Shown here piece after piece: positions 4,009 to 21,702 of a stretch of 25,042 bases of DNA; position 1 is the first letter of the stretch; every line of letters starts with the position of its first letter. Below the pieces are notes generated by a model. That model saw nothing but the letters and a program-made list of their open reading frames with translations. It ran no database searches and was not told where the DNA came from. The stretch is from a virus. The position numbers and the translations under genes were made by a program. The stretch is from positions 1 through 25,042 of IMG/VR virus record IMGVR_UViG_3300014962_000042. The stretch is one strand, 5' to 3'.

Positions 4009-4574
4009 ATATAGTTGAGGTTGCAACATCTTCGACTACTGTCGAGGTTTCAGAAACGACAGCTACCGTTGATGTTATTGCAGGTCAGGATACGGTTATT
4101 GTTAACCCACCTGACATGGCTTTTATTTACGCCTACGACACTACTGAGCAGGTTGCGTCTAGCCCTACAACAACTTACAAAATAGACCACAATACTACGG
4201 ATGGTCATTATGCGATTGAAAACTCTAACGGTACTTTCACTTTTTTGCGCCGCGGAACTTATCTAATATCGTTTTCTATCCAGCACAGTAATCCTTCTAC
4301 TAGCGAAATTGATGTAAACATTTTTGCTAAAAAGAATGGGCAAGTTTATGCAGATAGTAATTCACTAACGACTGTACCGCCTAAACATGGTCAAATTTCT
4401 GGTTCAGCAATCACGGCTGTTTCGTTGCTCATGTTTTTGAATGTAAATGAAACTTTAGAACTATGGTGGCAGGCTGATAATTCGGCTGCCGTTCTTTATA
4501 CTGTTCCGGCTCGAGTTTCGCCTGAGATTCCTGCCGCGCCTTCCATTATTACTACGATTGTGCAGGTGGCGTGA
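4005..4574 (+). CDS. C1q/TNF-like jelly-roll accessory protein
   Basis: This is a 189-residue protein of unknown role. Residues 1-37 form a Thr/Val-rich beta leader. Residues about 38-189 look like a C1q/TNF-type jelly roll, with GTYLISFSIQHSN, an IFAKKNGQVYADS strand pair, a VPPKHGQ loop, a LMFLNVNETLELWWQ strand and a closing ARVSPEIPAAPSI block. Phages use such folds as decoration, fibre or receptor-binding modules. The GTG start overlaps the previous stop as GTGA. Base use is visibly richer in A and T than in the portal and protease, which suggests a mosaic acquisition. The fold is inferred from sequence pattern only. Confidence 0.6.
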   Translation: MNIVEVATSSTTVEVSETTATVDVIAGQDTVIVNPPDMAFIYAYDTTEQVASSPTTTYKIDHNTTDGHYAIENSNGTFTFLRRGTYLISFSIQHSNPSTSEIDVNIFAKKNGQVYADSNSLTTVPPKHGQISGSAITAVSLLMFLNVNETLELWWQADNSAAVLYTVPARVSPEIPAAPSIITTIVQVA

Positions 4575-5734
4575 TGCCGTATTGGATTGCTGAAAACTTT
4601 GGTGACTGTAACGGTTGGGCTGTAATTGATGCGGCTGGTGAAGTGTTTGGATGTCACCAAACTAAGAAGGATGCTATTAATCAGGCTGTCGCTATTTCCC
4701 TTTCTACGGATGAACCGTTTGAGGGTGAACGGGCGAATGGCGAAATTATAGGGAATAATGGAGTTATGGGTATTCGTGCTGTTGCTGCCGAGCTTGAGGC
4801 CGGTGTATGGGTTCGCTGGATTTCTGACGACGAGGTTGAATATGGTGCTGTTGTCGCTGTTGATGGTGATATGGTTCAGGTTCGTCAGTGGGATGAAGAA
4901 GATGGTGTGTGGTCTGAGACTGAAGAGGTTGTTTTGGTTGACGTTGCCCGTGTAGAGGTTGTTGAGGCGTTGCCTGCGCCTGAGGTGGAGCATGAGCCTG
5001 ACATGATGCGTTCGGCTACTAAGTTTGAGACTCGTGTTCAGGCTACCGATTTTGAGGTTCGTGAAACACCTGATGGTATGGTGTTTGAGGGGTATGCTTC
5101 GGTATTCAATAGCCGTTCAGAAAATCTTGGCGGGTTTACTGAGTTTGTTGCCCCTGGTGCTTTTACCCGTTCGCTAAAGTCTCGTAACGATGTAAAACTT
5201 TTGTGGAATCATGACGCGGGTCAGGTTCTTGGTTCGACTCGTGCCAAGACTATGACTTTGACGGAAGATAACCGTGGACTTAAGGTTTCAGCTACTTTGC
5301 CTAACACACAGCTGGGAAGAGACACAGCAGAGCTCATCCGCACCGGAATAATCGACTCCATGTCTTTCGGATTCAACGTGATTAAGGATTCGTGGAACAG
5401 TGAGGGTACTGAACGTACTCTCAACGCTGTGCGCCTGTTTGAGGTTTCGATTGTGGCATTCCCCGCCTATGCAGGTACGGCCGGTACGACTTCGGTGCGT
5501 TCTCTTGAGAAGCTTGCTACCCGTGCCGAGGTTGACATGGCTGAGCTTGAGGCGGCACTTGTAAAGCTCGAGTCGGGGCAAGACCTTGACGAGGCTTCCC
5601 GTGACCTGCTCAATACTGTTATTAACAAGGTTTCCCCGTCGGCTACGTTTGACCCTGAGCCTGCCGATTCGGTTGTGGGTGATCTTGGACTTCTCGCACT
5701 CAAGAAGAAGAAGCTCGAATTGTTCGAGATGTAA
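4574..5734 (+). CDS. prohead protease with N-terminal extension
   Basis: This is the serine protease (HK97 gp4/U35 family) that trims capsid proteins during head maturation. The protease core covers about residues 145-310: VFEGYASVFN, the catalytic His in LLWNHDAGQ (H213), the serine motif DSMSFGF (S262/S264) and VSIVAFPAYAGT. The protein has 386 residues because about 145 residues precede the core. Residues 1-50 (GWAVIDAAGEVFGCH) form one small domain. Residues about 72-130 (VWVRWISDDEVEYGAVVAV) look like an SH3-like barrel. ATG 4574 makes a TGATG junction with the previous gene; GTG 4571 is the alternative. The acidic, Lys-tipped C-terminus may serve as a scaffold tail. Confidence 0.88.
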   Translation: MPYWIAENFGDCNGWAVIDAAGEVFGCHQTKKDAINQAVAISLSTDEPFEGERANGEIIGNNGVMGIRAVAAELEAGVWVRWISDDEVEYGAVVAVDGDMVQVRQWDEEDGVWSETEEVVLVDVARVEVVEALPAPEVEHEPDMMRSATKFETRVQATDFEVRETPDGMVFEGYASVFNSRSENLGGFTEFVAPGAFTRSLKSRNDVKLLWNHDAGQVLGSTRAKTMTLTEDNRGLKVSATLPNTQLGRDTAELIRTGIIDSMSFGFNVIKDSWNSEGTERTLNAVRLFEVSIVAFPAYAGTAGTTSVRSLEKLATRAEVDMAELEAALVKLESGQDLDEASRDLLNTVINKVSPSATFDPEPADSVVGDLGLLALKKKKLELFEM

Positions 5735-5754: not shown

Positions 5755-5786
5755 GAAAGACTAGTTTCGGCTAGTCTTTTCTTTTA
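5755..5786 (+). terminator. intrinsic terminator after the protease gene
   Basis: AAAGACTAG (5756-5764) pairs perfectly with CTAGTCTTT (5771-5779) around a 6-base TTTCGG loop, and the stem can be extended outward by weaker pairs. TTTTCTTTTA follows at once. It lies one base before the tmRNA-like RNA, so transcripts from the packaging operon would largely stop here. Confidence 0.75.
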
Positions 5787-5869
5787 GGGTCTGTGACTGG
5801 GTTCGATTGCCAATAAAGCCACATGTGGAGATTGGTAAGACGCGAGTTCGACTCTCGCCAGATCCACAA
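5787..5869 (+). ncRNA. minimal tmRNA-like RNA (tRNA-like domain only)
   Basis: GGGTCTG (5787-5793) pairs with CAGATCC (5859-5865) as a 7-bp acceptor stem with a G-U at the third pair, followed by A5866. These are the alanine identity elements of tmRNA. 5798-5806 (TGGGTTCGA) matches the conserved tmRNA D-loop GGNTTCGA. The T-arm is GCGAG, TTCGACT, CTCGC (5842-5858). In place of a D-stem and anticodon arm there is one 8-bp helix, 5807-5814 with 5831-5838, where tmRNA has helix P2. Against E. coli ssrA, acceptor pair 4-69 is T-A instead of G-C, and one T-stem pair is A-T instead of G-C; both are compensated. The 3' tail reads CAA rather than CCA. No canonical anticodon arm fits. A decayed ssrA or attachment-site relic is the alternative. 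Confidence 0.6.
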
Positions 5870-5884
5870 TACTTATACTTGGTA

Positions 5885-5893
5885 TGTTATTAT
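5885..5893 (+). promoter_or_regulatory. possible extended -10 promoter for the capsid gene
   Basis: TGTTATTAT has the TGn plus TATTAT form of an extended -10 box. It lies in the AT-rich stretch between the tmRNA-like RNA and the capsid gene. No good -35 box is seen. A promoter is expected somewhere in 5787-5983, because a strong terminator stands just upstream and the capsid gene must be highly expressed. Confidence 0.3.
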
Positions 5894-5983
5894 TTTATTG
5901 ACTGAGCGTTATTCGCCGTCATCCTTGTTCTCGCAGATTTGCGCGTCACTCGCCAACCTGCACCATTCCTTATTGGAGATAAG

Positions 5984-7102
5984 ATGTCTTTCATCAAGTC
6001 ACAGCAGGAAGTTCGCGCTAACCTTATTGCACAGGTTCGTGAGGTCATTGACCTTGCCGAGGCTGAAGGCCGCGGTCTGCTTGCTGAAGAAACCCAGAAG
6101 ATTGAGCGCATCGAAGCCGACATTCGTCGCGCTGACGAGGCACTCGCTATCGCTACCCGCAACGAAGAGCGCAAGACTGAAGCTGCTACTGCTGCTGCCG
6201 GTTTTGTTCCTGCTATGGAAGAGCGCAGCGACGCTGAAATCTTCCGCGCAATGGCTCGCGGCGAGGTTCGTGGTCACTCGTTCGAACAGCGTGCAACGCT
6301 CGTTCCTGCAACGGCTACCGTTCCCGTTTCGTTCCTTGACCGTGTATACGGTCTGGCTCGTCTCGTCGGCCCTATGCTTGACGTTTCGGAAGTTATCACT
6401 CGTACCTCGGGCAACGACATTCGTATCCCGATCTACACCGCCTTCTCGACCGCAACTCAGGTTTCGGCTGGTTCGGCTATCAGTGAAAGCAACCCCACTT
6501 TCGACTCGCTGCTTCTTCAGCCTAAGAAAGAAGCATTCATTGTGCCTGTCGCTAACGAGCTGCTGACCGATGCAGGATTCGACATTGAGGGTGTTATCGC
6601 TGAGCAGGCTGGTAACGCTATCGGTTACGCTGTAAACGGTACTGCAACCACCACTCTTGTTGGTGCTGCCGGTTCGGGTGTTACTGCTTCGACCGCTACC
6701 GCTATCTCGGCTGACAACCTCATCGACCTTGCATACTCGGTTGATGGTGCTGCACGTCGTTTGCCCGGTGTAGGTTATATGGCTAACGGTTCCACCATTG
6801 GTGCTATCCGTAAGCTGAAGGATGTTGCTGGCAACTACCTGTACCAGGTAGGCGTTGGACAGCCTGACACCTTCGCTGGTTTCGCCGTTTACGAAAACCC
6901 CGCTATGGACAGCATTGCTACTGGCAAGAAGGCTGTTCTGTTCGGTGACCTGCGTTCTAACAAGATCGTAACCACCGGCCTTGAGGTTGCCGTTTCGAGC
7001 GATGCTTACTTCGCTAACGATGTTACGGGTTACCGTTTCACCTACCGTGTTGCTTCGGGTCTTACCCACGCCGCACATGTGAAGTACCTGCTCCAGCCGT
7101 AA
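5984..7102 (+). CDS. major capsid protein (HK97 gp5 family)
   Basis: This is the shell subunit, 372 residues. Residues about 1-100 are charged and helical, with the repeated E/A/R pattern of an HK97 delta (scaffold) domain, and would be removed by the upstream protease near 95-103. The mature part carries family blocks: VSFLDRVYGLARLVGPMLDV, IRIPIYTA, LLQPKKEAFIVPVANELLTD, GYMANGSTIGAIRKLKD and AVLFGDLR. ATG 5984 has GGAG 5 bases upstream. The frame is open further upstream, but nothing there looks coding. Codons end in C far more than in neighbouring genes (ttc, acc, ctc, ggc), as expected for the most abundant product. Terminators stand on both sides. Confidence 0.95.
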   Translation: MSFIKSQQEVRANLIAQVREVIDLAEAEGRGLLAEETQKIERIEADIRRADEALAIATRNEERKTEAATAAAGFVPAMEERSDAEIFRAMARGEVRGHSFEQRATLVPATATVPVSFLDRVYGLARLVGPMLDVSEVITRTSGNDIRIPIYTAFSTATQVSAGSAISESNPTFDSLLLQPKKEAFIVPVANELLTDAGFDIEGVIAEQAGNAIGYAVNGTATTTLVGAAGSGVTASTATAISADNLIDLAYSVDGAARRLPGVGYMANGSTIGAIRKLKDVAGNYLYQVGVGQPDTFAGFAVYENPAMDSIATGKKAVLFGDLRSNKIVTTGLEVAVSSDAYFANDVTGYRFTYRVASGLTHAAHVKYLLQP

Positions 7103-7156: not shown

Positions 7157-7260
7157 TAACTCACTGCCATTCCAGTAGCTTTGCGAGTTGAGGATTTTCC
7201 TCGTGTAGAAACTAGCATAGGTTGTAGAATATAAGCAACCTATTTTTGAGAGGGATTGTT

Positions 7261-8445
7261 GTGGCTGTTGAGAAGTTGCGTGGCGTTGTTTCTGTTGCGA
7301 CTAATTCGTATGATGCACCTACTGGGTATGGGCAACAAGCGAAACATTTGATTGACCGGCTAGTACGGCATGGGTTTAAAGTAGCGAACTTGTCTAACTA
7401 TGGGCTTGAGGGCCGGATAGAGGATATTAAAACGCCTTACGGGAAGGTTACGCATTATCCTCGCGGGTTTAAACCGTACAGTGACGATGTGATTCCGGTG
7501 TGGCATAAGGATCATACTTCTAAGCATCCTGATGTGAAGGATGCGGTGATTACCCTTTACGATAGTTGGGTTTACAATGACCTTCAGTTTGATGGTGATG
7601 TTATTGCGTGGACTCCGTTGGATCATGTGACCTTGCCGCCGCAGGTTCTCAAGTTTTTGTTGCGTCACAATGTGCATCCGGTAACGATGTCTCCGCATGG
7701 TCAACGCCAGCTAGAGGCGGCTGGGGTGGATTCGGTTTATATTCCGCACGCGATTGACACTAAAGTGATGAAGCCTACGGATGAAGTGTTTGGTGTTCCT
7801 ACGCGGCAGTATTTGGATGTTCCTGATGATGCGTTTCTAGTGTCGATTGTGGCGGCGAATAAGGCTAATGGTTTGGTGCATCGGAAGGCGTTGGCTGAGC
7901 AGTTTATGGCATTTGCTATATTTCGCCAAGCACATCCTGACGCTTACCTGTATATTCACAGTGAGCCGTCGCCGGTGTTTGGCGGGTTCAATATCCCTAA
8001 CTTGTTGAAGGCGTGTGGTTTGTCTGATGAGTTTGTGCGGATTTTGAACACTGACGTGAACCGTACAGGCTATCCTGACGAGTTCCTAGCTGGCGTTTAT
8101 ACGGCTTCTGATGTGATGTTGCAGGTGTCGTATGGTGAAGGGTTTGGTGTGCCTGTGGTTGAGGCTCAGGCGTGCGGTACGCGGGTTATTTCTTCTAATT
8201 GGGCTGCTACTCAGGATTTGGTTTCTGAGGATGGTTGGCTTGTTGATGGGCAACCGTTTTGGGATTCTCCGCAAGAAGCTTTTTACAATATCCCGAATGT
8301 GGGTTCGATAGTGAATGCGCTCGAGTTGGCGTATCAGGCCCCTCGTGGCATGTCGGTGAAGTCGATGGAGTTTGCTAAACAGTTCGATGTTGAACGTGTT
8401 TGGTCGTGGTATTGGATGCCTTACCTGCGGGAGTTCTTTAAATGA
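7261..8445 (+). CDS. glycosyltransferase, GT4-type (GT-B fold)
   Basis: This 394-residue protein probably transfers a sugar from a nucleotide-sugar donor. The N-terminal half begins with the acceptor-side block APTGYGQQAKHL. The C-terminal half carries the GT4 E-x7-E donor motif in YGEGFGVPVVEAQACGTRVI (about 289-308). No signal peptide or membrane segment is seen, so it acts in the cytoplasm. I chose GTG 7261, which has AGAGGGA 6 bases upstream; TTG 7258 and TTG 7246 are alternatives. It overlaps the next glycosyltransferase as ATGA. Its place directly after the capsid gene suggests capsid, tail or wall-acceptor glycosylation. The substrate cannot be told from sequence. Confidence 0.85.
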   Translation: MAVEKLRGVVSVATNSYDAPTGYGQQAKHLIDRLVRHGFKVANLSNYGLEGRIEDIKTPYGKVTHYPRGFKPYSDDVIPVWHKDHTSKHPDVKDAVITLYDSWVYNDLQFDGDVIAWTPLDHVTLPPQVLKFLLRHNVHPVTMSPHGQRQLEAAGVDSVYIPHAIDTKVMKPTDEVFGVPTRQYLDVPDDAFLVSIVAANKANGLVHRKALAEQFMAFAIFRQAHPDAYLYIHSEPSPVFGGFNIPNLLKACGLSDEFVRILNTDVNRTGYPDEFLAGVYTASDVMLQVSYGEGFGVPVVEAQACGTRVISSNWAATQDLVSEDGWLVDGQPFWDSPQEAFYNIPNVGSIVNALELAYQAPRGMSVKSMEFAKQFDVERVWSWYWMPYLREFFK

Positions 8446-9089
8446 TTCCTGTAATGATTGTGCCTACCCTAAACCGGGGTGACTTGTTGCAGTCGATGTT
8501 GGATTCGGTTGACTATCCAGTGCAGCATCTTTTGATTGTTGATAATGGTATGCAGTGCCGTGAATGGTTTATACCTAACATGGTTCGTAATGTTCACCTG
8601 CTCGAGTTGCCTTCTAATCTGGGCGTGGCAGGGTCTTGGAATATAGGGGTTAAGCTATTTCCGCATGCTGATCGTTGGATGTTTGTTAGTGATGATGTGG
8701 TGTTTGAGCCTGGCGGTTTGGAGCATTTGTTTGATGATTCGTCGGCTGGGCATGTTGTGTTGTCTAGCGCATGGCCTCATTGGGAAACTTTTGTAGTTGG
8801 TGAAAATGTTGTACGCCATATAGGTTTGTTTGATGAGGGGATTTATCCGGCCAATTTTGAGGATGATGACTATTTGCGCCGCTGTGCCTATTTCGGGATT
8901 GATGTGCAGTATTCAAGTTTCGCGCATGGGCATGTTCAACAAGGCACGGTTTTTAGTCCTGAGTTTAAGGGTATGAATGATAAGACGTATCCGGTGAATG
9001 AGGCCTATTTGGGTGACAAGATTGCGCGATCAGATTTTGGTGAGGGTGGTTGGAATCTTGACCGCCGTCGCGTTAACTCGTGGGATTAG
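8442..9089 (+). CDS. glycosyltransferase, GT2-like (GT-A fold)
   Basis: This 215-residue GT-A type enzyme is short for its family. It begins with the nucleotide-binding strand MIPVMIVPTLNRGDLL. Then come LLIVDNG, the NLGVAGSWNIG block and the metal-binding acidic motif SDDVVFEPG near 84-92. FDE (about 128-130) with NFEDDDYLRR (137-146) matches the catalytic acidic region of GT2 proteins. It is coupled to the preceding GT4 enzyme by ATGA, so the pair probably acts in sequence on the same acceptor. No membrane segments are seen. The specific sugar is unknown. Confidence 0.8.
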   Translation: MIPVMIVPTLNRGDLLQSMLDSVDYPVQHLLIVDNGMQCREWFIPNMVRNVHLLELPSNLGVAGSWNIGVKLFPHADRWMFVSDDVVFEPGGLEHLFDDSSAGHVVLSSAWPHWETFVVGENVVRHIGLFDEGIYPANFEDDDYLRRCAYFGIDVQYSSFAHGHVQQGTVFSPEFKGMNDKTYPVNEAYLGDKIARSDFGEGGWNLDRRRVNSWD

Positions 9090-21471: not shown

Positions 21472-21702
21472 TTGTTGGGTTGGCATGCTGATGCGGCTTG
21501 TGCTGAGGTTTCGGGTGATCTGTTTTTTCCTGAGGCTGGTGGTACGGCGAAGGAAACTCAGTTGGCTAAGGAGTTGTGTGGCCGTTGTTTGGTGCGTGAG
21601 GAGTGTTTGGGGTATGCGTTGAAGCATCGTGAACAGTATGGGATTTGGGGTGGTACTACGCCGCAGGAGAGGTTGGCGTTGCGTCGTGCTGCTAAAAAAT
21701 AG
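21472..21702 (+). CDS. WhiB-family Fe-S transcription regulator
   Basis: This 76-residue protein has the four cysteines of WhiB proteins, C10, C36, C39 and C45 (C-x25-C-x2-C-x5-C), which hold a 4Fe-4S cluster. GIWGG (57-61) is the signature turn that contacts sigma factor, and the basic end (RLALRRAAKK) would bind DNA. WhiB proteins occur only in actinobacteria and their phages, which fixes the host group. It may redirect host sigma-A transcription or block a host WhiB. The start is TTG 21472 (a second TTG follows), with GAGG about 8 bases upstream. Confidence 0.92.
   Translation: MLGWHADAACAEVSGDLFFPEAGGTAKETQLAKELCGRCLVREECLGYALKHREQYGIWGGTTPQERLALRRAAKK

Follow-up and report, generated by a model that had tools for sequence, protein, structure and literature searches.

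Phage-encoded tmRNA with little beyond the tRNA-like domain (TLD) has been described in mycobacteriophage DS6A (tmID 11587; Mao 2009, cited in PMC4131195 and PMC11915505) and resembles in this respect the RNA presented here, which we call mini-tmRNA. The original prediction for this locus had taken known phage tmRNAs to be full length, which the DS6A form contradicts; TLD-only phage tmRNA is thus a kind already known. The DS6A form was reported from one phage, whereas the present family numbers in the hundreds and occurs in phages of unrelated hosts, and DS6A is likened to it by description rather than by sequence. Mitochondrial tmRNAs without an mRNA-like domain (RF02544; jakobids and oomycetes) have likewise kept the TLD and lost the tag frame, but they are usually permuted, organelle-encoded, and paired with a nuclear SmpB, whereas the phage mini-tmRNA is one-piece, ∼79 nt long, and viral. 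The tmRNA of Mallomonadaceae plastids, at about 65 bp, has no CDS and is also tag-less and short, although it is plastid-borne, shorter than the phage form, and known from two sequences only (PMC11915505). Full-length phage tmRNAs (Bxz1, other Streptomyces phages, pelagimyophages, and Melnitz) share with the mini-tmRNA their phage-borne ssrA ends, but have a tag frame and come as one or two pieces. The 2025 tmRNA database holds 79 phage tmRNAs in total and nine "standard, no CDS" sequences from all sources (PMC11915505). Finally, the TLD crystallized with SmpB (2CZJ) was engineered by linking the 5′ 25 nt to the 3′ 34 nt through a loop (PMC3985003), which is nearly the same design as that of the mini-tmRNA. 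In the open-access literature searched, we found no description of a broad phage mini-tmRNA family, and its size, conserved hairpin and architecture, mobility, and host breadth look new.

The mini-tmRNA gene and its identity

The window, i.e. the whole stretch of 25,042 nucleotides analyzed here, belongs to a record encoding a terminase, portal, head protease, HK97-type major capsid protein (MCP), tail genes, two glycosyltransferases, and a WhiB-like gene, which together identify it as a tailed phage. The mini-tmRNA lies between the protease and MCP genes, with the following features.

4571..5734, + strand: head maturation protease, upstream gene (phrog_80, 1.4e-70)
5756..5786, + strand: terminator-like hairpin whose T-run ends one base 5′ of the mini-tmRNA; not listed by the consensus scan
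5787..5866, + strand: mini-tmRNA (TLD alone), 80 nt, last base the discriminator A73; RF00023 58.1 bits, family model R1 75.4 bits
5787..5793, + strand: acceptor stem 5′ strand GGGTCTG, with G3 (of G3-U70) at 5789; partner 5859-5865; pairs 4-7 compensated across 122 homologues, chosen in part for acceptor pairing
5794..5806, + strand: tmRNA-type D-loop without a D-stem, TGACTGGG-TTCGA; GG directly 5′ of TTCGA in 149/150 homologues
5807..5814, + strand: P2 helix 5′ strand TTGCCAAT; partner 5831-5838; covariation
5815..5830, + strand: P2 loop, comprising an A-rich bulge AAAG, a hairpin CCA-CATG-TGG (5819-5828), then AG; AA...CC....GG.A conserved (A1/A4)
5831..5838, + strand: P2 helix 3′ strand ATTGGTAA; covariation
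5839..5841, + strand: GAC linker, A5840 corresponding to E. coli A334 (SmpB Trp122 pocket); from sequence, the contact from PMC8363625
5842..5858, + strand: T-arm GCGAG-TTCGACT-CTCGC; T-stem paired in 92/92 of the distinct scan matches listed
5859..5865, + strand: acceptor stem 3′ strand CAGATCC, with U70 at 5863; from sequence and covariation
5867..5869, + strand: CAA in place of CCA, so that CCA addition would be needed after processing
5981..7102, + strand: MCP, downstream gene (phrog_10, 4.7e-48)

The acceptor stem forms 7 bp, including G3-U70 and T4-A69, and is followed by A73 at 5866. The D-loop reads TGACTGGGTTCGA, P2 has eight pairs of which one is G-U, and in the T-arm an A-T replaces one E. 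coli G-C pair. Both tmRNA termini, the determinants G3-U70 and A73, and the two compensated differences from E. coli (the T4-A69 acceptor pair and the T-stem A-T) are therefore present in 5787-5866 as had been predicted. The single 8-bp helix foreseen at the place of P2 is there too, whereas the conserved hairpin inside it had been overlooked. The Rfam search proposed at that time gave one match in the window at E ≤ 1, RF00023 (tmRNA), which scored above its gathering score of 47 (E = 1.5e-20) and extended over model positions 1-374. No match to RF00005 (tRNA) was found across the 28.4-kb (28,392-base) viral record, and ARAGORN missed the element. A tRNA or tRNA-Ala-like identity was rejected on these two negative results and because the terminal loop of the hairpin is freely variable. 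The RNA combines an acceptor stem bearing G3-U70 and A73, a stemless D-loop, and a P2 that replaces the anticodon arm, all of which mark tmRNA. Because just 16 nt separate the P2 strands, there is no tag frame, resume codon, or mRNA-like domain, and pseudoknots, for which 80 nt leave no room, are absent as well. These results, an end-to-end tmRNA match without a tRNA match, bear out the prediction of a tmRNA-like RNA lacking the mRNA-like domain, an identity that is well supported. The minimum-energy fold of the single window sequence was uninformative (z -1.8), since it differs from the TLD and the T-arm is missing from it; the TLD structure therefore rests on covariation.

Conservation, size, and spread of the family

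The covariation check also called for by the original prediction was very strongly positive. In 32 aligned members, 93.6% of cells were paired versus 67.7% in shuffles, and 189 cells of the acceptor, P2, and T-stem carried double changes versus 56 ± 6 in shuffles, whereas slid-control alignments were each ≤51% paired. Several Watson-Crick types per pair occur at acceptor pairs 4-6, T1-T3, and P2 pairs 2-6 among 122 sequences, a set for which acceptor and T-stem pairing was an inclusion condition, and P2 pairing weakly so. Conservation extends to positions outside the search pattern: the GG preceding TTCGA, an invariant D-loop G13, and A29 and C33 in the inner hairpin region (≥90%). The inner hairpin, carried on P2 behind the A-rich bulge, is commonly GAAAGCCGCAYGCGGAAC, and it is retained in Streptomyces phages BRock, Alone3, and Riptide, the D-loops of which are altered. 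The structure of the mini-tmRNA is conserved by selection.

Although the element had been treated as unique, it is one of several hundred phage relatives. Pooling yielded ∼150 distinct homologues of 74-82 nt (typically ∼79 nt), from cultured phages as well as viral contigs. When IMG/VR was scanned with a pattern that placed no constraint on the acceptor stem, 26 distinct real elements were obtained, counting the window and the Pontimonas phage phiPsal1, and G3-U70 and GGG...UCCA are present in 26/26. A second scan, which did not require T-stem pairing, gave at least 92 distinct matches; among the matches listed, all five T-stem pairs form in 92/92 distinct sequences, and 88/92 have five or all six of the first six P2 pairs. 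The main scan pattern fixed GGG, TTCGA, GAC, TTCGA, and UCCA, the conservation of which is thus uncountable from that scan and, for TTCGA and GAC, partly reflects hit selection, but both of the latter motifs are present in 4/4 syntenic members found without requiring either. Because two complete sub-scans returned 48 and 14 contigs versus 12 and 4 among the 120 matches listed in the second scan, IMG/VR probably holds ∼400-500 mini-tmRNAs. RF00023 passed its cut-off in 52 of the 58 carrier records. By contrast, the same pattern gave 33 matches in 257 Gb of genomes from bacteria and archaea, ∼20 of which were judged to be chance and ∼13 real, which argues that the family is mainly viral. Only 49/150 homologues encode CCA; the other two thirds, including that of the window, would need CCA addition.

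Copies in cultured phages had escaped annotation. The homologue in phiPsal1 (5569-5647) lies directly 5′ of the MCP gene; Streptomyces phages LuckySocke, GiJojo, pSt2308, and Shaeky carry theirs within tRNA arrays, that of Shaeky beginning 5 nt past the end of tRNA-Phe; and in Stenotrophomonas virus Jojan60 it adjoins tRNA genes and a primase. In no case does the annotation give a tmRNA, and the copy of GiJojo is overlain by a hypothetical gene. The host range covers phages of Actinomycetota and Gammaproteobacteria and probably those of Cyanobacteria, Bacillota, and others, the phyla beyond the hosts of cultured phages being taken from MAG/SAG titles, among which stray phage contigs are common.

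Several sequences lie at the margins of the family. A 75-nt subfamily, GGGGTAG...TAACATTAATTTAGC (contigs L008, L069, L156, and L223), has another P2 loop and an encoded CCA, in some cases with an adjacent tRNA-Tyr. Microbacterium phages Armstrong and Skylord (L388:2438-2527 and L435:538-627) carry beside tRNA-Asn an unannotated 90-nt tRNA-like RNA with an acceptor GGGCCTG/CAGGTCC, G3-U70, and a diverged D-loop and middle (38 bits), which judging by its sequence is perhaps a distant mini-tmRNA. In Streptomyces phage Riptide the mini-tmRNA (L267:3977-4053), the one with an altered D-loop, is accompanied by a full-length tmRNA match at 94862-95130. Phages of Klebsiella, Achromobacter, Pseudomonas, Synechococcus, and Tunturiibacter gave BLAST matches confined to the T-arm, which were not accepted as mini-tmRNAs, and an ARAGORN tmRNA call at L217, which wraps a mini-tmRNA together with upstream sequence, appears to be a false positive.

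Genomic context and relation to host tmRNA

The MCP region of the window has one match in the phage collection, phiPsal1, whose host is an aquatic Microbacteriaceae, which makes an actinobacterial host likely. The WhiB-like regulator gene (21472-21702; PF02467, 1.3e-22) is a sign of the same. Two glycosyltransferase genes immediately follow the MCP gene (7246-9089), as in phiPsal1, and could possibly serve capsid glycosylation.

The neighbors of the mini-tmRNA vary across the family and include protease/MCP, terminase/portal, a DnaB-like helicase, polynucleotide kinase, and tRNA arrays. It precedes the MCP gene in 4 of the 77 checkable MCP relatives (59-94% identical) and is missing from that site in the other 73. 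The closest relative (L268, 94%) lacks the RNA at this site, the hairpin being followed directly by the leader, and the hairpin at the terminator-like site is retained in related phages without a mini-tmRNA. Two relatives carry the mini-tmRNA elsewhere, one just after the MCP gene and one far off, and three positions are seen among related 30-kb phages. Poor conservation in related phages, which the original prediction had counted against itself, is thus not what was found, since the RNA recurs in many phages, but its distribution among close relatives is patchy. Because it is patchy and occupies varied positions and contexts among close relatives, the mini-tmRNA is, by genomic context, trans-acting. 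A tRNA gene is found no more than 20 nt away in 13 of 126 members (gaps of 0-13 nt). Copies that adjoin tRNA genes or sit in tRNA arrays are in keeping with tRNA-like processing, and the natural reading is that the mini-tmRNA would be excised and its ends processed like those of a tRNA.

Other motifs were seen around this site. The MCP leader (5867-5980) contains two copies of a TTGAGCGTCATTCGCC-like motif ∼36 nt apart (5904 and 5941), a pair kept in the MCP leaders of the closest relatives (L268, L270, L272, and L276), and the motif could serve as a repressor site or an RNA-binding site. In L269-L277, a promoter-like GTATATGCGGTATACTAT follows the terminator-like hairpin and precedes the MCP leader, with a counterpart near 5874-5892 in the window, and phiPsal1 has CGGTATCCT just 5′ of its mini-tmRNA.

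No SmpB gene was found in the 58 carrier records, so an SmpB partner must be that of the host. Full-length tmRNA is also present in at least eight of the nine bacterial assemblies holding a mini-tmRNA, a Prochlorococcus assembly not being counted among the eight; several of the nine are MAGs, in which the mini-tmRNA may sit on a phage contig. The mini-tmRNAs differ from the full-length tmRNA of their own assembly, and the mini-tmRNA is separate from host ssrA. In E. coli tmRNA, U17 and A334 together with A15 form a pocket for Trp122 of SmpB, which contacts the D-loop (PMC8363625). Judging from the aligned residues, the D-loop and GAC linker of the mini-tmRNA would provide counterparts of U17 and A334.

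Possible functions of the mini-tmRNA

We favor, with moderate confidence, a chargeable decoy that would titrate host SmpB and compete with host tmRNA at the A site. The mini-tmRNA would be transcribed together with phage genes, its ends would be processed as in tRNA, with CCA added where it is not encoded, and it would be charged with alanine through G3-U70. Host SmpB would then bind the tmRNA-type D-loop, the GAC linker, and P2. Lacking a template, the mini-tmRNA could not tag proteins, but it would hold SmpB, perhaps together with EF-Tu and AlaRS, and occupy the A site of stalled ribosomes. Host trans-translation would thereby be inhibited or diverted during infection, and stalling on phage or host mRNA would no longer end in tagging and proteolysis, presumably to the benefit of the phage. 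This is judged the most likely explanation because a TLD-only RNA has been reported to inhibit E. coli tmRNA, charged or not: according to PMC4131195 and PMC11915505, a DS6A-type TLD-like RNA inhibited it strongly regardless of its ability to be charged, perhaps through titration of SmpB. The original prediction of a decoy for host trans-translation was a sensible reading. The altered D-loops of BRock, Alone3, and Riptide speak against this model and, because a decoy needs the TLD alone, it leaves the conserved inner hairpin unaccounted for.

The main rival is rescue without tagging, in which alanyl-mini-tmRNA, SmpB, and EF-Tu would enter stalled ribosomes and accept the nascent chain, and the ribosome would be recycled with its product untagged. 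Phage proteins would be spared proteolysis, much as mitochondrial tmRNA without an mRNA-like domain is thought to aid with incomplete mRNAs. The strict G3-U70 and A73 suit charging, in mitochondria, tmRNAs lacking a tag frame have been maintained alongside SmpB (PMC11915505), and both the constant size of ∼79 nt and the conserved inner hairpin fit this possibility. We nevertheless consider it rather unlikely, as there is no known release step for a peptidyl-mini-tmRNA without a template codon, and the one functional result reported on a similar RNA (PMC4131195) is inhibition, chargeable or not. An equally tentative proposal is that mini-tmRNAs are a distinct functional family that, with host SmpB, might rescue or redirect stalled ribosomes template-free, the A-rich bulge and CC-NNNN-GG hairpin replacing the mRNA-like domain through contacts with the ribosome or with a release/recycling factor. 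If so, rescuing ribosomes without a tag would be a strategy common among phages.

That the mini-tmRNA is a bait for host RNA-targeting defenses that cleave or sense tRNA or tmRNA appears improbable. Its patchy, mobile distribution, the SmpB-like domains in CoCoNuT defense systems (PMC11090510), and the RNA ligase genes near several Streptomyces phage copies are compatible with such a role, but no defense system or cleavage site is linked to the mini-tmRNA, and the ligase may just go with the tRNA array. Still harder to uphold is a cis-acting element of the capsid mRNA, whose tRNA-like fold would be cut by RNase P to trim the leader. The window, phiPsal1, and some dozen further lineages have the RNA ∼50-130 nt before the MCP gene, which would suit such a role. 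The copies after the MCP gene or elsewhere in related phages, those of other phages near helicase genes or within tRNA arrays, the 73/77 checkable MCP relatives that lack the RNA at that site, and the terminator-like hairpin preceding it in the window largely refute a cis-regulatory role, which we rejected on genomic context. Finally, although both of its ends resemble ssrA, there is next to no chance that the mini-tmRNA is a decayed att site, as the original prediction had already argued, or a recent deletion derivative of host ssrA, which it had allowed for, because compensatory changes run throughout ∼150 variants that keep both termini, the mini-tmRNAs are unlike the full-length tmRNA of the same assembly, and no integrase or resolvase was found in the window's record.

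DS6A, the single published oddity, thus has many relatives, which make up a conserved RNA gene left unannotated in the cultured genomes checked. Because cultured Streptomyces phages carry the mini-tmRNA, its function is open to direct testing. If it inhibits or redirects SmpB-tmRNA as the decoy model proposes, interference with host ribosome rescue would be a widespread phage tactic, and trans-translation would weigh more in the conflict between phages and their hosts than is now assumed.
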